Positions 4,027-23,411 of a stretch of DNA of 24,758 nt are shown here, piece by piece. The notes beneath the pieces are model-generated. The model worked only from the letters and a program-made list of their open reading frames with translations. It was not told where the DNA came from and did no database searches. The DNA lies in IMG/VR virus record IMGVR_UViG_3300035388_000014, positions 1 to 24,758 of that record; one strand, given 5' to 3'. A program made the translations under genes and the position numbers. The DNA is from a virus. Positions within the stretch are counted from its first letter, which is position 1, and every line of letters begins with the position of its first letter.

Positions 4027-4380
4027 CTATTTGGACTCCCGGATTGTGAAGCTGATTCCGAAGCGGTCGAGGATTTTGAACTCCCGGCCCGCTTTATCTT
4101 CAAGGAACCGGCAGGTAATCAATTCAGAGGCGTATTTGGTCGGGAGAAAATCATGAGGATCAAAGGTAAAAGCAACCCCCCGGCCTTTTTTGGCATTGAA
4201 AAAAGCCCAGATTGTATCAACCGTCTGCTGCTGGTAAACCATGGTGAAGCTGCGCCGTCCGGATGCCCATTTGCTCGATGCTTGCTCGCTGCCGTTTTCG
4301 GCCTCAAATACATTTGTTTTATACTCGGCTCCCTCTGTGAAGGTGTAAACCGGCAGGGGGGTTGCGGGATAATCAGCCAT
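4027..4380 (-). CDS. M: Minor tail protein M-like
   Basis: A 117-residue protein between the tape measure gene and L, the position of lambda M. The pattern (TVDTIWAFFNAKKGRGVAF, then FDPHDF, then a beta-rich end RFGISFTIRES) resembles the M/DUF2460-like tail-tip proteins, in which a loop that packs on the tube is followed by a compact beta domain. It would help terminate tail-tip assembly so that tape-measure-directed tube polymerisation can start. The ATG at 4380 overlaps the tape measure stop by 8 bases, consistent with coupled translation. The family assignment rests on order, size and general pattern. Confidence 0.7.
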   Translation of the reverse strand: MADYPATPLPVYTFTEGAEYKTNVFEAENGSEQASSKWASGRRSFTMVYQQQTVDTIWAFFNAKKGRGVAFTFDPHDFLPTKYASELITCRFLEDKAGREFKILDRFGISFTIRESK

Positions 4381-6682
4381 TTAAACCACTCCTTGAGACT
4401 CCGTCGTTTTTATAATCCATAACCACCGCCGCCCCAATCGTTTCTGCATGCTCCAAAAGTAATGCCTGGACACTGGGAGCATCCAGGGCGTTGACGGTGA
4501 TGTGGTAATGATTTACTACTTGATGGCCTTGTGCTTTCTGCCCCAGCGCCTTCATCTGCCCGGGAGTAAAAACCCCCTCATCATCTTTAATAATCGCCGC
4601 CATCTCACCGGGCATCAGGCCGTTGTGGAACTTTGGAGCACCGGCAAACGTAGAGGCTGGCATCACCATAGAGGGAGCGCTATCGACACTCGGAACGCCG
4701 CCGGTATGGAAAAAGCTCCCCACCCATGACACAGCTTTATCTACGACCCCGCTCGACGCGCTCTGCTTGGCAATGTCACCCATTCCGACACCGTTCCAAT
4801 CCATTCCCATGGCTGATCCCACTTGGGTGGCAATCGGCATGATCAATTCTTGAGAAAGAAAAGCTGCTGCCATATCTGCGGCGGTCCGTTTGGCAATATC
4901 AATCAGCATATCCCCGGCGTTGTCCCAGTCGGCGATGATGGCGGAGGTGTGCTCCTGGGTGGTGTCGAGCATGTCGGCCTGGGCGTCTTCTACTTTTTCC
5001 TGATATTTCTCTAAAGCCTTTTTGGCAATCTCCAGGCGCTCTTGCTCGGCGTCATAAAAAGCCTGTGTCTCTTGCTCTTGATAATCTGCTGCCCGTACTG
5101 CTGCATCCTTCATGCCTTGTTCGCGGATTAGCCAGGAGTCTTTACCTATTTTCTTTGCTGAGGCGATCTCTTCTGCGTATTTCTTAGCGTTATGTTCCTG
5201 GAGTTTTTTTAACTCTGCTTTGTAATGTTTTTCTGCTTCCTGTAATTTTTTGTCATTGACCGTTTTGTTGAGGGTAGCAATTTCAGACTCCATCGCTGCG
5301 ACGATTTCGGGTTTTGCGTTCTCGGAGTCACGGTAATATTCAAGCAAGATTTTTGCTGATTTAATCCTACTCTCAAGCGCCTTATCTATGATAGCTTGAT
5401 ATTGTTTCTCAATACCTGTAAACAGATCGGTGTTATGCGCCTTTTCAAATGATTTCAGTGCGTTTATTGCTGATTTATTGACGTCATTCATAACACTTGC
5501 AGCAACTTTCAACCCTGCAAGTTCAGCACTTAAACTCGCAATTGCAGCCTCTGTCTCTTTTGCTTCTGCCCGGTATGGCTTCCCAAGTAGCGGATTCCTG
5601 CCAAGCTTGTTTAACTCTTCGAGATCTGTTTCAAGCTGCTTGATTTTTGCGCTTACACCTGCGATTGTCCCATCGTTGACAACTTCACGCGCTGAATCCC
5701 TAAGCTGATACAGCGCGGTCCCAGCTGCCGCAAGCCCGGTCGCCGCCAAAATCCATGGATTCGCGGCCATAGCAAGAGTCAATACCTTTATCCCGGCTGC
5801 GGCCTTCGGAGCCGCTGTTGCAATCTGGCTTAGAGCCACAGGAATGGATCCAACAGCGGCAATGGTCGCAACATTTGCGATCTCGTCCATATTCTCGGCA
5901 ATGGCAGAAAACGAGTTTGCGATTGCCGCTGTAGCCCCTGTAGCTGTATCGAACTCTCCTATCATTTTCATAACGGAGTTTTTTATTCTTACAGTACTTT
6001 GACCTACCGTCGTGTCCATTTTTGAAAATTCAATAGAGATGGCTCTTGCAGCATTCGAACCTTTGGATAGAGCATCAACGAGGACCTTGCTTGTCAATCC
6101 ACCTTGTTCTGCTATTTTTCGGAGTTGCCCAACAGGCACACCCAAACTATCCGCTATTGCTTCGGCAAGTCTCGGCGCTTGCTCGAGAACAGAATTAAGC
6201 TCCTGCCCCCTAAGTGCTCCAGCTGCGAAACCTTGCCCTAGCTGGATTAACGCTGCGTCTGCTGCCTGTGCCGATGCCCCAGAAATTACCAAGGATTTAT
6301 TAATCGTGTCTGTAATCCCCAAGAGCTGCTCTTGAGAAAGATTTAGCTCCTTGGTAGACCTGGAGATCCTAGAGTATAGCTCTCCTGTTTTCTCGAAGCT
6401 TTGCCGGGTTTCCTGAGAAGCTTCAAAGAGCAACCTTTGTACATTTGTAAGTTCGTCGGCGCTTTCTGTTACAAGCTTTAATCGCCCTTCAACGAGCTTC
6501 CAGGTGTCGGCTTGCTGGATTATTTCACCAGACCCCATAACGGTAGCAACCCCAACCATGGCGGCCTTTAAGGAAAAAACAGAGTTTGTCAACTCCCTAC
6601 ACTGAGCCTCAACAGTGTGAAACGCATGATCCGTAACGTTCTTGGCTGTGAGTAGGATTTCCATCTTTGCATCGGAACCCAT
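4373..6682 (-). CDS. H: Tail tape measure protein
   Basis: A 769-residue protein. Residues about 60-220 match the tape-measure N-terminal domain (FEKTGELYSRISRSTKEL, then a segment with ALRGQELNSVLEQAPRLAEAI and GVPVGQLRKIAEQG motifs). An Ala-rich hydrophobic stretch lies around 270-325 (AANPWILAATGLAAAGTALY). Long charged helical segments, Lys/Glu-rich and probably coiled coil, cover about 340-570, and the end is a Gly/Ser/Met-rich region. The protein sets tail length and is ejected with DNA; at about 0.15 nm per residue this predicts a tail near 115 nm (inference). GAGAGG upstream of the ATG is the likely ribosome site. It is much shorter than lambda H (853 aa), so the tail should be somewhat shorter. 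Confidence 0.93.
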   Translation of the reverse strand: MGSDAKMEILLTAKNVTDHAFHTVEAQCRELTNSVFSLKAAMVGVATVMGSGEIIQQADTWKLVEGRLKLVTESADELTNVQRLLFEASQETRQSFEKTGELYSRISRSTKELNLSQEQLLGITDTINKSLVISGASAQAADAALIQLGQGFAAGALRGQELNSVLEQAPRLAEAIADSLGVPVGQLRKIAEQGGLTSKVLVDALSKGSNAARAISIEFSKMDTTVGQSTVRIKNSVMKMIGEFDTATGATAAIANSFSAIAENMDEIANVATIAAVGSIPVALSQIATAAPKAAAGIKVLTLAMAANPWILAATGLAAAGTALYQLRDSAREVVNDGTIAGVSAKIKQLETDLEELNKLGRNPLLGKPYRAEAKETEAAIASLSAELAGLKVAASVMNDVNKSAINALKSFEKAHNTDLFTGIEKQYQAIIDKALESRIKSAKILLEYYRDSENAKPEIVAAMESEIATLNKTVNDKKLQEAEKHYKAELKKLQEHNAKKYAEEIASAKKIGKDSWLIREQGMKDAAVRAADYQEQETQAFYDAEQERLEIAKKALEKYQEKVEDAQADMLDTTQEHTSAIIADWDNAGDMLIDIAKRTAADMAAAFLSQELIMPIATQVGSAMGMDWNGVGMGDIAKQSASSGVVDKAVSWVGSFFHTGGVPSVDSAPSMVMPASTFAGAPKFHNGLMPGEMAAIIKDDEGVFTPGQMKALGQKAQGHQVVNHYHITVNALDAPSVQALLLEHAETIGAAVVMDYKNDGVSRSGLNG

Positions 6683-6685
6683 ATT

Positions 6686-7276
6686 TTAAATCCTCTCTCC
6701 AGCCATCTTGGCTTTGAAGTTCTTGGCTATATCTTTTTGGAATTGAGCATTGTAACGAGCCCAGAAAGGAGAGACCAGAGGTCGGCCCGGGGTTTTGAAT
6801 TTGCGCGTGGATTGCTTGAGGAAAAACGGGGTATTGCCTCCCTCGGCCACGCCCAGCTCAGAACCCCGGGAAACAATAAGCTTACGGAGACCAGGGGAGA
6901 TTGTCCGTTCGAATCCTTTCTGGTGCTTTTCAGCCGTCTTTACCCACCCGCCTGATTTCTCGGGGATGAAACCGACAGCCATAGTGTAGGGCTTTTGGTC
7001 TCGAACGGCATACCTGACCCCCCTGGATAGAGAACGAAGCGGGGCGCGATTGGGGGATCGTCCCCACAGGCGCCGGGCGATATAAGAGAGAGGTTCCGTT
7101 TTTTGGCCGCCAACGGTTCCGCTCTTGATTTCTTTTTGAAGGAGAATCATGGCCTTGAAAGCTGTTCTCTTCAAGGCGGCATTCATAGCCTTGTCGGCTT
7201 TTTTCTGACCACGGTCCAGGGCGTCAAGAGTGCCTTTCAAACTATCCTTCGTCAGTTCTACTGCGAGATTGAGCAC
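6686..7276 (-). CDS. Tail completion-like protein (gpZ / HK97 gp10-like, tentative)
   Basis: A 196-residue basic protein with a GTG start at 7276 and GGGAG eight bases upstream. It has an N-terminal helical part (LTKDSLKGTLDALDRGQKK), a central Arg-rich part, and a C-terminal FWARYNAQFQKDIAKNF helix. This layout (helical N-end, basic middle, conserved Pro/Phe-containing C-terminal helix, about 190 residues) is like lambda gpZ or the HK97 gp10/virion-morphogenesis proteins that complete the head-proximal end of the tail. It lies between the chaperone genes and the tape measure, not between FII and U as Z does. Its start overlaps the T-frame end by 35 bases. The role is an inference from shape and context. 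Confidence 0.5.
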   Translation of the reverse strand: MLNLAVELTKDSLKGTLDALDRGQKKADKAMNAALKRTAFKAMILLQKEIKSGTVGGQKTEPLSYIARRLWGRSPNRAPLRSLSRGVRYAVRDQKPYTMAVGFIPEKSGGWVKTAEKHQKGFERTISPGLRKLIVSRGSELGVAEGGNTPFFLKQSTRKFKTPGRPLVSPFWARYNAQFQKDIAKNFKAKMAGERI

Positions 7277-7846
7277 TTAAAAGCTCCCTTTCAATGGCTT
7301 GTATTTTTCGTTTCAGCCCTCGGGACCAGGTGAGGTCCAGTTCCCGGGCGGCCTGCCTGGCCTCGGCATAATCCAGACCAATTACACCTATGCCACCCGC
7401 CCGGAGCTGGGTTTTAATATCCTGCCAGAGCATCCAGGCGTCGATGTTGCAAGGCAGGAGATCGGGCGGCTTTTCCCATTCGCAACCCCGGCATTTCTCG
7501 GGATCGGGGTTGGTATCCCGGCATGTCTCACAAAATTCTATGCGCTGACGGTCGTTGTACCATCGCCAGTGCTCTGTTAGTTTTTTTCCTCACTCTTATT
7601 CCCGTAGGTTTCAGTAAGGAGATCCCCCCATACAGCCCGAGTATCGGCCATGGGTCGTTCGTCAAGATAATCAATAGTTTCTTTATCGAGCACAAAAGCA
7701 AGAGCGTCATCGACAACACCCTCCAAATTTTCCATATCTGGGTTACAACCCAGGTATGTGTACCCGAGCTTCTTTAAACTCTTGATCTCTTTTTTGGTCA
7801 GGGGGCGAATTTCAATGGTTTTATCGCCAATTTCTATTTCTCTCAT
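7242..7846 (-). CDS. GT: Tail assembly chaperone GT, made by programmed -1 frameshift
   Basis: Ribosomes that slip -1 at the A AAA AAC heptamer (7580-7586) leave the G frame just before its TAA and continue for 112 codons to the stop at 7242-7244. The product is about 201 residues, 89 from G plus the T extension. The extension has no usable start of its own at its beginning (first ATG at 7433), which supports frameshifting. It contains CETCRDTNPDPEKCRGC, a possible zinc knuckle, and a C-terminal part with AWMLWQDIKTQLRAGG and GVIGLDYAEARQAAREL, like the DUF1799 T-type proteins. GT would bind the tape measure and recruit tube subunits, and be absent from mature tails. Lambda and many siphophages make G and GT this way; the use of this site is inferred. 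Confidence 0.85.
7542..7572 (-). promoter_or_regulatory. Stem-loop downstream of slippery site, likely frameshift stimulator
   Basis: Seven bases after the heptamer, GCACTGGCG (7572-7564) can pair with CGTCAGCGC (7550-7542). There are seven Watson-Crick pairs, one G-T pair and one A-C mismatch, with a 13-base loop. Spacing and size fit a stimulatory hairpin. Pairing was judged by eye; no energy was computed. Confidence 0.55.
7577..7846 (-). CDS. G: Tail assembly chaperone G-like
   Basis: An 89-residue acidic protein (REIEIGDKTIEIRPLTKKEI at the start, DDALAFVLDKETIDYLDERP in the middle). It lies directly after the tube gene and before the tape measure, the place of lambda G. Its ATG forms a TAATG overlap with the tube-gene stop. 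The last codons, GAA AAA AAC TAA, contain the slippery heptamer, so G is the non-shifted product and GT the shifted one. G proteins coat the tape measure before the tube assembles around it. Assignment is by size, position and the frameshift signal. Confidence 0.8.
   Translation of the reverse strand: MREIEIGDKTIEIRPLTKKEIKSLKKLGYTYLGCNPDMENLEGVVDDALAFVLDKETIDYLDERPMADTRAVWGDLLTETYGNKSEEKN
7580..7586 (-). promoter_or_regulatory. Slippery heptamer A AAA AAC for -1 frameshifting
   Basis: On the minus strand the G-frame codons end GA[A AAA AAC] TAA, the canonical X XXY YYZ arrangement in the correct phase. The -1 frame is open from this point to 7242. The stop directly after the heptamer would also favour pausing. 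Confidence 0.85.
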
Positions 7847-8805
7847 TATGCGTGTTCCTCTGTGTTGGTTAATACTGTTTGAACGCTCGTTTCTTCTGCC
7901 GCTATTTTATAAAAGCCTCCCCAGGGAAGCTTGATAACAATCCCCTTTGGGCCTTCGATTCCCGGAGAGCTGGGAGTGTATTTTACTTCCGGAAATTTCT
8001 TGACCAGTGCGGATGTTGAAGAGCCTGTGAACGTGGCTTCAATGCTTGATTTTGTAGAATTGGTAGCCTTATCCAAGAGGTCCATATTTTGGAACAGAGC
8101 TGACAAGTTCCCGCCGACAGACATAACTCCATCCGGGATAGCCCCCCTAGAACCGCCCCCACCAATTACATATTGATCTGTGTCGCAATTCCAGCCAATA
8201 TTGCAATCAAGAGATTTGGCGTTACTGATAGTGGTTCCGCCCTCTTTCAAAGTTAACTGATTATTTTTTAATTTGCTCAGACCAACAATGGTGGGAGCGG
8301 CATCGAATGGGGTTGTGCTCGGGGTTTCCTGTGCCCCTTCAACATTTAATACAACTAAAAGTTCTGCATCTGCCCCCATGTTTGCGATATTCATGGAGTT
8401 TATTTTAACTCCCGTATACCGCATATATTGAGGCGTATCCAAATCGAGAAATTGATGTTCTACTGTAAGATATGGCCTGGGAGCATCTGGATCGCCCGCT
8501 TTAAACGTATGTACCCACGGGCTTGCAGAACCGGTCGTTGTTGGCGAACCATATGCGGCTTTGAGCCAGTACCACATCGCAATGGAATCCATGGGAATGG
8601 TTATAACTCCGGCAACTTTCTTGTTTCCATCGCTGGGTTCGGCCGGATTAAGGTTTCCTCGAATGGTGGTATCGGGGATCTGTGTCCGGTCTCCTTTGAG
8701 TGTCGAGCTTTTTATTGGCATAACAAAGCCCTCCGTGGCCGGTGTTACGGCATCCACCTGAAACCCTATCACCAGTCTTGACATTGCCCCTGTTGCTTGT
8801 TTCAT
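7846..8805 (-). CDS. V: Major tail (tube) protein, V-like
   Basis: A 319-residue protein rich in Gly, Thr and Ser with a beta-structured pattern. Features include GVITIPMDSIAMWYWLKAAYG near residue 65-85, a central block around TGVKINSMNIANMG, and a late GGNLSALFQNMDLLDKA segment. This architecture is typical of phage tail-tube proteins (TTP family), and the gene sits between the terminator candidate and the G/GT chaperones as in lambda. It would polymerise as hexameric rings around the tape measure. AAGGAA lies six bases before the ATG. At 319 residues it is longer than lambda V (246), so an extra surface domain is possible, but none was recognised. Confidence 0.85.
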   Translation of the reverse strand: MKQATGAMSRLVIGFQVDAVTPATEGFVMPIKSSTLKGDRTQIPDTTIRGNLNPAEPSDGNKKVAGVITIPMDSIAMWYWLKAAYGSPTTTGSASPWVHTFKAGDPDAPRPYLTVEHQFLDLDTPQYMRYTGVKINSMNIANMGADAELLVVLNVEGAQETPSTTPFDAAPTIVGLSKLKNNQLTLKEGGTTISNAKSLDCNIGWNCDTDQYVIGGGGSRGAIPDGVMSVGGNLSALFQNMDLLDKATNSTKSSIEATFTGSSTSALVKKFPEVKYTPSSPGIEGPKGIVIKLPWGGFYKIAAEETSVQTVLTNTEEHA

Positions 8806-16657: not shown

Positions 16658-17527
16658 TTATGTTTCCGTCCCTGAACAAGCAGACAATAGGGCCATTCTG
16701 ATAAAATCACTTTCCTTTATCCCTTTGGCTTTTGCCGCTTTTTTTATTAATGTGGATTCCGTCCCTGTCAGGCGCACCATTTTTCGGACATCCCTTTTTT
16801 CACTGGCCTTTTTCTTAGCTCTGCCAGCGCCCTCTCTTTTCCCACCGTGGGTTTTGATAACTTCATCCCACCGGTAATCAACAAACTGTGAAGAGACAGG
16901 GACGCCCCGTTTTGATAAGAATAAGTAGGAGACCGTCACTGTTTTACCGATGGACCGCGCTCGACTTTTCCATAATCTTTGTCTGTCATCCTGGGTCATC
17001 ATGGAGCATCGGAAAGATTGCCCGGATGCAGTTTCAAGTTCTAAAGAACCAAAGGTCTTGGAGTTTTTCCCGGTCCCGGGTTTGAATCCCACGATGAAAG
17101 CTTCCATGTCGTGCCTGGGTTTTTTCTTGAATTGTTCCCTGGTTTTCTTATGGGTCAACACCACGCCTTCGAATCCGTCGTTTAAAACCAGACTGTATAT
17201 CTTGTCGAAATGATCTTTGTCTTTTGGGTATTGTTTCTCAATTTCGGAATGCGGGAAAAACTGAATACGCTCCTTTGTATCAAACCCCTGCATAACAGTG
17301 GTGTTGATCTCCTGGAATGCCATGGAGTGACAATAGAGCTCACCCTCCACGTCTGCGCAGGCGCTGTTTTTAAGCCCTTGCACTATGTGGGGTACACTCT
17401 TTATTTCGTTGCCTGTCTTCGTCACCAGCATTCCTTTTTTATGTAACCACTTCCCAAAAATCCCGTTTAACTTTGCCTGAACTTCATATTCCGAAAAAAC
17501 GATACTGTTTAAATTTGCGATCTCCAT
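16658..17527 (-). CDS. ATP-dependent DNA-ligase-like protein (LigE-type) fused to ribbon-helix-helix tail
   Basis: A 289-residue protein. The nucleotidyltransferase part has motif I as KLNG (Lys19; Asn replaces the usual Asp), TKTGNEIKSVPHI, motif III VEGELYCHSM, motif IV GFEGVVLTHKK and motif V KKPRHDMEAFIVGF. An OB-fold follows (GTGKNSKTFGSLELE, DRQRLW, KTVTVSYLFLSKRGVPVSSQF), in line with LigE/OB-fold ligases. Residues about 226-289 begin GGKREGAGRAKKK and end in a ribbon-helix-helix pattern (VRKMVRLTGTESTLIKKAAK). It would seal nicks in replicating or packaged DNA if active. The start at 17527 is chosen for AAGGAGG five bases upstream; an in-frame extension to 17581 would cross the promoter. 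It heads the late operon. Confidence 0.8.
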   Translation of the reverse strand: MEIANLNSIVFSEYEVQAKLNGIFGKWLHKKGMLVTKTGNEIKSVPHIVQGLKNSACADVEGELYCHSMAFQEINTTVMQGFDTKERIQFFPHSEIEKQYPKDKDHFDKIYSLVLNDGFEGVVLTHKKTREQFKKKPRHDMEAFIVGFKPGTGKNSKTFGSLELETASGQSFRCSMMTQDDRQRLWKSRARSIGKTVTVSYLFLSKRGVPVSSQFVDYRWDEVIKTHGGKREGAGRAKKKASEKRDVRKMVRLTGTESTLIKKAAKAKGIKESDFIRMALLSACSGTET

Positions 17528-17553
17528 AAAAGCCTCCTTTAAGATATGCCTTA

Positions 17554-17581
17554 ATTGTATAGGAAGCTTGATTATTGTCAA
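17554..17581 (-). promoter_or_regulatory. Sigma70-type promoter of the late operon
   Basis: On the minus strand TTGACA (17581-17576), a 16-base spacer and TACAAT (17559-17554) stand 26 bases before the ligase-like ATG. The -35 is perfect and the -10 has one mismatch. A small inverted repeat TTAAG/CTTAA (17539-17554) overlaps the end of the -10 and the likely start point, so a repressor could act there. Confidence 0.75.
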
Positions 17582-18382: not shown

Positions 18383-18613
18383 ATGAAAGCAATCGCCCAG
18401 ACATTTAAGACCGACCTGGAAATGATGAAAGAGCTTGCCAAGGAACTCAAAGATGTCTCCCGAATCAAAATCCTCCCCGGCGATATCATCTCCGTAGAAT
18501 ACAATCACAACGGCTGGCGGGATGAGTTCACGACGGTTGAAGGCCTGGTGAAGGAACTTCAGCGGCAACACATGGCATCGGAGGGGGCTGAAAATGAAAA
18601 CATCAAGAATTAA
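18383..18613 (+). CDS. Hypothetical protein, first gene of the plus-strand cassette
   Basis: A 76-residue protein with an AAGGGGG ribosome site about six bases before the ATG. The N-terminal half is helical (TFKTDLEMMKELAKELKD). The middle is KILPGDIISVEYNHNGWRDE, a possible small beta sheet, and the end is helical. No family is recognised. It is the first of four small genes on the plus strand, opposite to all flanking operons, and follows the promoter/operator region. The next gene overlaps it by 20 bases, so they are co-translated. Possible roles such as regulation of the host or of superinfection are guesses. Confidence 0.7.
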   Translation: MKAIAQTFKTDLEMMKELAKELKDVSRIKILPGDIISVEYNHNGWRDEFTTVEGLVKELQRQHMASEGAENENIKN

Positions 18614-18833
18614 ATCCTGGGTCAAAGAAGAAACAAAACGTCTCAATATCACAGAACAAGAATTAGCAAAATCCCTGACAAATGGGGCAGGAATGACGCC
18701 GGAATGGATCAGCTACGGTTCTGAATGGAAAGACGGCATAGAAATTGGAACACTCCTCTACGATGAAATTCTCGATCAAAAATGGGTAGACAGTACAAGC
18801 TTGACCGATAGGTATCTCATTGAAAAAGATTAA
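18594..18833 (+). CDS. Hypothetical protein, second gene of the plus-strand cassette
   Basis: A 79-residue protein with GGAGGGGG upstream inside the end of the preceding gene. It starts KTSRIKSWVKEETKRLNITE, an amphipathic helix pair, and continues with EQELAKSLTNGAGMTPEWISYG, which loosely recalls a helix-turn-helix, but a DNA-binding call is not supported. The C-terminal half is acidic (EIGTLLYDEILDQKW). No family is recognised. It ends 5 bases before a perfect GC-rich hairpin. Confidence 0.7.
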   Translation: MKTSRIKSWVKEETKRLNITEQELAKSLTNGAGMTPEWISYGSEWKDGIEIGTLLYDEILDQKWVDSTSLTDRYLIEKD

Positions 18834-18838
18834 CTCAA

Positions 18839-18862
18839 CCGCCCCGGGGAGACTCGGGGCGG
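18839..18862 (+). terminator. GC-rich hairpin without U-tract
   Basis: CCGCCCCG and CGGGGCGG form a perfect 8-bp stem with an 8-base loop between the second and third cassette genes. No T-run follows; instead the AAAGGGAGG ribosome site of the next gene begins two bases later. It could attenuate, stabilise the upstream mRNA or modulate translation of the next gene rather than terminate. Confidence 0.4.
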
Positions 18863-18877
18863 CAAAGGGAGGCCAGG

Positions 18878-19168
18878 ATGCTTAATACAAAATTCAAAAC
18901 CACAAAGCAAAACCTTATCGCCCTGGTCAACCGGGTGGCGACCCCTGAGACCCTGAACCTGATCAAAACTGAAATTGAAGACTGTAAGACCCTGGCCGAG
19001 CAGATTGAGTGGACCATGGAAGCATATTTTACATACGAACAAAAATACGCTATCGTGAAGATTTCCAGGGCCGGAACCTGGGGGTTGATCGAAGAGTTGG
19101 ATGATGATGACATAGAATATACCGATCTTTGGAATGGGAATTTTATCAAGGATTGGCATGAAAAATAG
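18878..19168 (+). CDS. Hypothetical acidic protein, third gene of the plus-strand cassette
   Basis: A 96-residue protein with an AAAGGGAGG ribosome site just after the GC-rich hairpin. The N-terminal half is helical (NLIALVNRVATPETLNLIKT). The central part (EYFTY-like run EAYFTYEQKYAIVKISRAGT) suggests strands, and residues 70-80 carry a DDDD run. The whole protein is acidic in its C-terminal half. No family is recognised. The next gene starts 9 bases after its stop. Confidence 0.75.
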   Translation: MLNTKFKTTKQNLIALVNRVATPETLNLIKTEIEDCKTLAEQIEWTMEAYFTYEQKYAIVKISRAGTWGLIEELDDDDIEYTDLWNGNFIKDWHEK

Positions 19169-19177
19169 GAGGGAAAT

Positions 19178-19384
19178 GTGACAAGAGGCGGAATAAGGAA
19201 AGGGGCAGGACGCCCGGTTGGTTGGAGGAAAGAAAATCCGAAGGTCCAGCTGTCGGTGCGGATTGATGGGGAGTTGCGGGAGTGGTTGCGCAGGCAGAAG
19301 AATCAGGCGAAAGTGGTTGAAATTGCCTTAAAGGAATACCGGGAGAAGAATGATGAATTCATTGACTATCTAATTTCATTATAA
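19178..19384 (+). CDS. Ribbon-helix-helix DNA-binding protein with GGIRKGAGRP motif
   Basis: A 68-residue basic protein starting with GTG at 19178; GGAGGG lies five bases upstream, and an ATG two bases earlier would be followed at once by a stop. It begins TRGGIRKGAGRPVGW, a basic Gly/Arg motif common before phage ribbon-helix-helix domains. It continues KVQLSVRIDGELREWLRR and ends VVEIALKEYREKND, the strand-helix-helix pattern of CopG/Arc-type proteins. It would bind operators as a dimer, perhaps those at 18252-18337. The motif recurs in the tail of the ligase-like gene. Confidence 0.75.
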   Translation: MTRGGIRKGAGRPVGWRKENPKVQLSVRIDGELREWLRRQKNQAKVVEIALKEYREKNDEFIDYLISL

Positions 19385-22309: not shown

Positions 22310-23134
22310 TCAATCCTCGTCTATGAATGCTTGGCAGGCTGCCAGATTGGTGTCCATTCGCTTTGACCCCAGGGTTGTTCCGTTTGGCATCCTGCCGCTT
22401 TTGCTGTTCGGCCCCCTTCTGGAGTTTTGGGCTTTTCCGAGCCATGTCGTTATGTGCCGCTTGATTCCCGTCTTGGTTTTCCGCCTCTCGGGGCTGGCGT
22501 TGTTCCACTGCTGGCAATTTCTGAGCTCCTGGTGAACGTCGATCCCGGGGTAGGCTTGCTGATATTCAGCAACATCGGTCATGGTCACGGCATGGAGCCC
22601 TGCCTTGCCGGCAAGTGGGATTTCCAGGAACACAGGTTCAGGCGGTTTCGATCTTGGTTTGGTTTTGGGGGGCGGCGGGGGTGAGTCGTTCCTCGGCTCA
22701 CCACAAGAATTACCGTTAGGTAATTCTCTTTCTGTCTCTGCTTCTGTCTCTAGTTCTTTGCTCCGGCGTTGCTCTGGAGCTGCTCCGGAGTTTTTGGGTT
22801 TGCGCTTACCTTTCTTTTTAGTCCATTCATCCCGGTATTTCAGGATCTTAGGACAACTTACAGTAATAAAATCGCCGTCTATTTCCGTCAAAAATAATTC
22901 AAGATTTTCACAGGTTTTGAGAAATTTCTGAAACTTTTTTGGAGAAAACTCGCAGAATTTCCGCCAATTTTTCTTGGAAAGTTTCAAAAAGGATTCATTT
23001 TTCTCTGTAATTTTTTCACCGATCAACTCTAAAATGATCCAATAAACCCCATACCCGGCAACCCCGAATTCATCTCGAATTTGTAGGAGAGACTCATCTC
23101 TGTTTGCCGATGTCATATGTTTAAACCAGCGCAT
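22310..23134 (-). CDS. Replication initiator-like protein (O-type, Lin1244/DUF4373-like N-terminus)
   Basis: A 274-residue protein starting at 23134 (MRWFKHMTSANRDESLLQIR); AAGGAG is eight bases upstream and the start overlaps the HNH gene end. The first about 110 residues (FGVAGYGVYWIILELIGEKI and further strands) look like the winged-helix Lin1244/Lin1753 type N-domain. A Pro/Lys-rich linker holds SPPPPPKTKPRSKPPEPVF. The C-terminal part has YQQAYPGIDVHQELRNCQQW and RRKTKTGIKRHITTWLGKA, seen in phage initiators. As in lambda O, repeats in the linker coding region (22706-22791) probably serve as origin. Confidence 0.75.
   Translation of the reverse strand: MRWFKHMTSANRDESLLQIRDEFGVAGYGVYWIILELIGEKITEKNESFLKLSKKNWRKFCEFSPKKFQKFLKTCENLELFLTEIDGDFITVSCPKILKYRDEWTKKKGKRKPKNSGAAPEQRRSKELETEAETERELPNGNSCGEPRNDSPPPPPKTKPRSKPPEPVFLEIPLAGKAGLHAVTMTDVAEYQQAYPGIDVHQELRNCQQWNNASPERRKTKTGIKRHITTWLGKAQNSRRGPNSKSGRMPNGTTLGSKRMDTNLAACQAFIDED
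22706..22791. repeat. Iteron-like repeats within the initiator gene, candidate replication origin
   Basis: Plus-strand reading: a perfect 9-bp inverted repeat AGAATTACC/GGTAATTCT with 4-base spacer (22706-22727); a 10-base direct repeat TTCTGTCTCT at 22730 and 22742; then three tandem 11-mers, TGCTCCGGCGT (22759), TGCTCTGGAGC (22770) and TGCTCCGGAGT (22781). AT-rich sequence follows at about 22850-23050. Lambda and relatives place iterons plus AT-rich DNA inside gene O. Some of the repetition could reflect low-complexity coding. Confidence 0.5.
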
Positions 23135-23411
23135 TACTTCTCTCCTTATCAATTTGTGATACCCATCCATGCTTGCCGTGACACTCCCAGCAGCAGGTTT
23201 TTAGATTCTCCAGGACATCCGGCCCTCCCTGAGACGTGTGCTTGATATGATGAGGATGAAGCGCACAATTAAGGTTATGGTCCCATGGAGGAAAAACCCG
23301 GCCACAGTACTGGCAAGTGTATTCGTCACGCTCAAACAGCTCTACAACGAGCGATTTGGGGAGTACTCGCCGTTTCTTTTTCCGGTATTTTACTTTCGGG
23401 CAGGGAGTCAT
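23121..23411 (-). CDS. HNH endonuclease
   Basis: A 96-residue protein. CQYCG near residue 33, HPHHIKHTSQGGPDVLENLK at about 52-71 and CCWECHGKHG at the end form a zinc-binding HNH nuclease with the His, Asn and His spaced as in the family. Free-standing HNH proteins of this size act in phage recombination, packaging or homing. The start overlaps the upstream micro-gene (ATGA), and its end overlaps the initiator start by 14 bases. The N-terminus is basic (KYRKKKRRVLP). Confidence 0.85.
   Translation of the reverse strand: MTPCPKVKYRKKKRRVLPKSLVVELFERDEYTCQYCGRVFPPWDHNLNCALHPHHIKHTSQGGPDVLENLKTCCWECHGKHGWVSQIDKERSNALV

Follow-up and report, generated by a model that had tools for sequence, protein, structure and literature searches.

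A lambda G/GT-type tail assembly chaperone locus with a probable programmed -1 frameshift at a conserved A_AAA_AAC heptamer

Phage lambda carries a two-ORF tail assembly chaperone ahead of its tape measure gene, with T in the -1 frame and the slippery heptamer G_GGA_AAG near the end of G. The programmed -1 ribosomal frameshift that joins G and T in lambda is well established (Levin 1993; Xu 2004, as reviewed in PMC5009743), and its products stand at a G-T to G ratio of about 1:30 (PMC5009743). The heptamer A_AAA_AAC is the site of the haloarchaeal virus HCTV-2, and in E. coli it is weaker than A_AAA_AAG (PMC5009743). An AAAAAAC positioned right at the G stop has been described for the Acinetobacter phages Loki and IME_AB3 (PMC5313236), and we found that the Loki sequence (LN890663) reads TCA AAA AAC TAA at the junction. 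For gp18/gp19 of Burkholderia phage KL1, a -1 shift has been predicted at GGGAAAC ahead of TGA (PMC3483164).

Here we describe a locus of the same type in the IMG/VR virus record IMGVR_UViG_3300035388_000014, of which we analysed positions 1-24,758 (hereafter the window, 24,758 nucleotides). All frameshift-related genes of the window are on the minus strand, in the order tail tube protein (7846-8805, PF18906), G-like zero-frame ORF (7577-7846, 89 aa, directly 3′ of the tail tube gene), T half (7242-7580), a 196-aa protein (6686-7276) with a weak match to the tail completion/Neck1 family phrog_222, and tape measure protein (4373-6682, PF20155). G and T overlap between the tail tube and tape measure genes, with T in the -1 frame. 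The 3′ end of G reads GAG GAA AAA AAC TAA, in which the heptamer A_AAA_AAC (7580-7586) is in phase with G and abuts the zero-frame stop (TAA, 7577-7579). Starting with the heptamer's C (7580), 112 codons can be read in the -1 frame, down to 7245, before a stop at 7244-7242; the codons gained by a -1 shift begin LTEHWRWYNDRQ, and the fused G-T product would have 201 aa. We scanned the T frame for ATG, GTG and TTG, and found none before the ATG at 7433, which is T codon 50. Our reading of the ORFs and their translation agrees with a first-pass annotation made from the sequence, which had reported the in-phase A AAA AAC followed by TAA, the 112-codon -1 frame lacking a start near the junction and the 201-residue fusion; its layout for the site (7542-7586) is right as well, while the minus strand was left unstated.

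The window resembles lambda in its two-ORF tail chaperone ahead of the tape measure gene, its T in the -1 frame and its heptamer near the end of G, and differs from it by the use of A_AAA_AAC with an immediate stop and by one additional gene between T and the tape measure gene. Loki gp12/gp13, annotated as a joined CDS, has the same A_AAA_AAC abutting TAA, and Loki shares the gene order of the window, including a tail-completion-type gene ahead of the tape measure gene; however, its T half belongs to Phage_TAC_18 (PF23812), whereas that of the window is a DUF1799 protein. Similarly, in KL1 the heptamer abuts the G stop and a gene precedes the tape measure gene, but the heptamer is G_GGA_AAC, the stop is TGA and the T half is again PF23812. 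The phages S-CBS3, D14P, Silvergun and Kintu share with the window a DUF1799 T in the -1 frame and a heptamer abutting the stop; in their annotations the two ORFs stand apart and no joined product is given. The heptamer-stop layout and G/GT shifting are thus already known; the family-wide assignment of DUF1799 is new.

The T half alone scores 26.2 bits against PF08809 (DUF1799), above the Pfam gathering cut-off of 26, and 24.6 bits within the G-T fusion, with homologs scoring 44-92. The match spans T residues 40-99, and T also matches phrog_680. An AlphaFold model of T built with 13 homologs is confident (pLDDT 88.5) and mostly helical with two short strands, its domain starting from residue 2 after the junction. 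Among the named entries of a viral fold library, those closest to this model carry the label ‘tape measure chaperone’ (E 0.02-0.03), and a comparison with solved structures returned no match. For the G half, we found no family match in Pfam or PHROG, and the AlphaFold model from three sequences (pLDDT 53) is too poor for use; accordingly, the G half is assigned as a putative lambda-type gpG by its gene position only. Judged from sequence, the locus belongs with the tail assembly chaperones of the lambda G/GT type.

The T half carries a CxxC...CxxC set (C17, C20, C30, C33) that is invariant in the window and in the Desulfobacterota homologs and is absent from S-CBS3, L061 and the Pseudomonas clade; it is a possible zinc site. 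Regarding database labels, phrog 680 and phrog 569 are both called ‘tail length tape measure protein’ although their matches are to the chaperone, namely to its T and G halves, and the GenBank entry for S-CBS3 gp13 carries this label too.

Taken singly, the heptamer or the stem is unremarkable against chance. The window has 15 copies of AAAAAAC against an expectation of 7.8, and its structural genes contain 19 in-phase XXXYYYZ heptamers. One further AAAAAAC in phase lies in the tape measure gene (5978-5984, minus strand), where the -1 frame stays open for 92 codons; we considered it as a second shift site and treat it as a chance occurrence, as it is absent at that place in the Desulfobacterium relative described below, the tape measure of which differs. 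The combination of the heptamer, a 112-codon -1 frame matching a protein family and conservation is, however, far above chance.

We assessed this conservation at the homologous junctions that could be placed in Desulfobacterota genomes, IMG/VR contigs and named phages. The relatives include an IMG/VR contig (L001, 75% T identity), a Desulfobacterium MAG (L004, 83% T identity) and more than a dozen further loci from genome searches within the same phylum, family and order as this MAG; scans that used G and the tail tube protein as single query sequences brought up no viral relatives, and a plasmid search for relatives found none. An in-phase heptamer is kept at every placeable homologous junction, which answers in the affirmative the question, raised by the first-pass annotation, of whether close relatives with an intact T frame retain it. 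The heptamer is A_AAA_AAC in L001, L004/L051, L052-L064, L007, L008, L010, L012, L016, L048, L050 and cyanophage S-CBS3, A_AAA_AAT in L009 and L049, and G_GGA_AAC in the Pseudomonas/Xanthomonas/Acinetobacter clade L017-L047; this last heptamer is seen in phages of the three genera and in 28 viral contigs. At the junction of L015, a weak match, AKN-SLR* stands against KGKKLAAV. The three closest relatives all keep the four codons GAG GAA AAA AAC unchanged, and synonymous constraint past the heptamer is marginal (P 0.06-0.08).

Next to the heptamer is a hairpin, a probable frameshift stimulator (7542-7572, minus strand), which starts 7 nt past the heptamer and has the arms GC.CUGGCG and CGUCAG.GC. 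The 13-base loop and 7-base spacing are as first annotated, whereas the stem, then given as 9 bp, comprises 8 pairs, including a G-U, plus one A.C mismatch. Its energy is within the lowest 10% of minus-strand windows (10th percentile), and against control windows of the same genes it is not exceptional (p 0.22). Across relatives, a stable hairpin starting 6-8 nt past the heptamer is present in most lineages, and hairpins 5-7 nt past it exceed the control windows in strength (22 lineages, combined P 3e-12, an approximate value because the controls are drawn from the same loci and the lineages share history). A strong hairpin is missing in several relatives, for example L052, L059, L062, L012, L017 and L024. 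We found no consensus structure across homologs with RNAalifold, and with the window stem as template 56.7% of the cells are paired compared to 50.1% after shuffling, which is weak support; consequently, we make no claim for conservation of the exact pairs. Collectively, the hairpin seems to be conserved by position and free in register. The signal had been called unusually complete, a description that is not supported given that the hairpin is weaker than in most relatives and that the heptamer-stop layout was already published for Loki and, with GGGAAAC, for KL1.

Directly after the heptamer, L004 keeps TAA, L001 has lost the stop (TCA), and TGA stands in most of the GGGAAAC clade as well as in S-CBS3 and L064. 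Using an expectation built from the T protein sequence and the codon usage nearby, we found an immediate stop in 6 of 21 lineages compared to 4.75 expected (P 0.30), a frequency that gives no reason to regard the stop as a pause element under selection. Stops within two codons show a mild enrichment (12 of 21 lineages compared to 6.65 expected, P 0.003, with lineages that are partly dependent). At the HIV-1 site, a stop at this place is reported to lower -1 frameshifting in bacteria and, with a loss of about 70%, in mammalian cells (PMC4373837). The suggestion that the stop adds pausing is therefore not borne out: the stop is absent in L001, it is as frequent as T coding predicts, and its HIV-1 counterpart reduces shifting. 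Given this reduction and the lack of an excess over T coding, a neutral or damping effect of the immediate stop is more likely than a stimulating one.

Taken together, we consider it very probable, from the sequence comparisons, that G and T are joined by a programmed -1 ribosomal frameshift of the lambda G/GT type. The T family match, the gene order and ORF layout, the phase of the heptamer and its conservation, the lack of a T start and the enrichment of hairpins across lineages support the programmed G-to-GT shift that had been proposed for the window. Counting against it are the unexceptional hairpin of the window, the lack of a shared register and, in several relatives, of a strong hairpin, the Asn-ending site, which is weak in E. 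coli, and the marginal synonymous constraint. That slippage occurs and how efficient it is, that the hairpin stimulates it, and what the chaperones do are inferred. Most ribosomes would finish G and end at TAA, while a minority would slip one base back with the Lys and Asn tRNAs on A_AAA_AAC, aided by the downstream hairpin. The tRNAs would re-pair as AAA AAA and reading would go on as CTA ACA GAG into T, resulting in the G-T protein. If the division of labour is that of lambda, G would form a coat on the tape measure and G-T would bring in the tail tube subunits.

A nearly identical fusion could be produced if RNA polymerase inserted one A on the run of seven consecutive A's present in the window, L001 and L004, with normal translation of that mRNA giving G-T. 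We regard such transcriptional slippage as very unlikely, for only six A's are found in L007, L008, L058, L062, L016 and L048, always ending as an in-phase heptamer, the L017-L047 clade has GGGAAAC and no run at all, and the hairpins are enriched at the ribosomal spacing. It is the heptamer that is conserved and not the homopolymer run, which argues for slippage of the ribosome rather than of the polymerase.

Less probable still is that T is made through internal initiation, or through translational coupling after the G stop. The ATG at 7433 offers a start in the T frame, but it lies inside both the DUF1799 match and the predicted helix 43-58 and would cut both; this Met is also missing in L001, and there is no closer ATG, GTG or TTG. 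That the locus is one gene split by a sequencing error or a degenerate frameshift mutation has to be considered because IMG/VR virus records are often fragments; we hold this to be the least likely explanation of all, as dozens of other records share the split at the identical heptamer and these relatives refute an artefact. The programmed -1 ribosomal frameshift is therefore the reading that we retain.

Elsewhere in the window, beside the terminase genes, the ORF at 16658-17581 (minus strand) matches ATP-dependent DNA ligases (phrog_114, PF14743) and has a ribbon-helix-helix/NikA-like C-terminal tail (PF21983, slightly under the cut-off), an apparent ligase-RHH fusion. Four small plus-strand ORFs (18383-19384), three of which have no Pfam match, oppose the minus-strand operons, and the last of them starts with a GG-R-GAGRP motif resembling one in the ligase tail. 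A small HNH endonuclease (PF01844) is encoded close to the right end of the window (23121-23411, minus strand).

This locus provides a clear example of an already known type of recoding in a little-studied phage group with relatives in Desulfobacterota genomes. Our survey identifies DUF1799, which is still without a name in Pfam and is labelled ‘tape measure’ in PHROGs, as the T part of a tail chaperone with a frameshift, and gene callers are therefore likely to split or miss G-T. A broader reading, which we put forward tentatively and consider rather unlikely as a whole, is that the entire DUF1799 T family is expressed only via Asn-codon heptamers (A_AAA_AAC/T, G_GGA_AAC), often followed by a stop no more than two codons away, and with a hairpin whose position is constant while its register varies. 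Asn-codon heptamers have been reported to be very shifty on mammalian ribosomes. If true, their use throughout DUF1799 would point to a shared mechanism, perhaps slippage of the E- and P-site tRNAs, tuned to low efficiency. With Asn-ending heptamers here as opposed to the Lys-ending ones preferred in E. coli, these phages offer a natural series for the determinants of shift efficiency.
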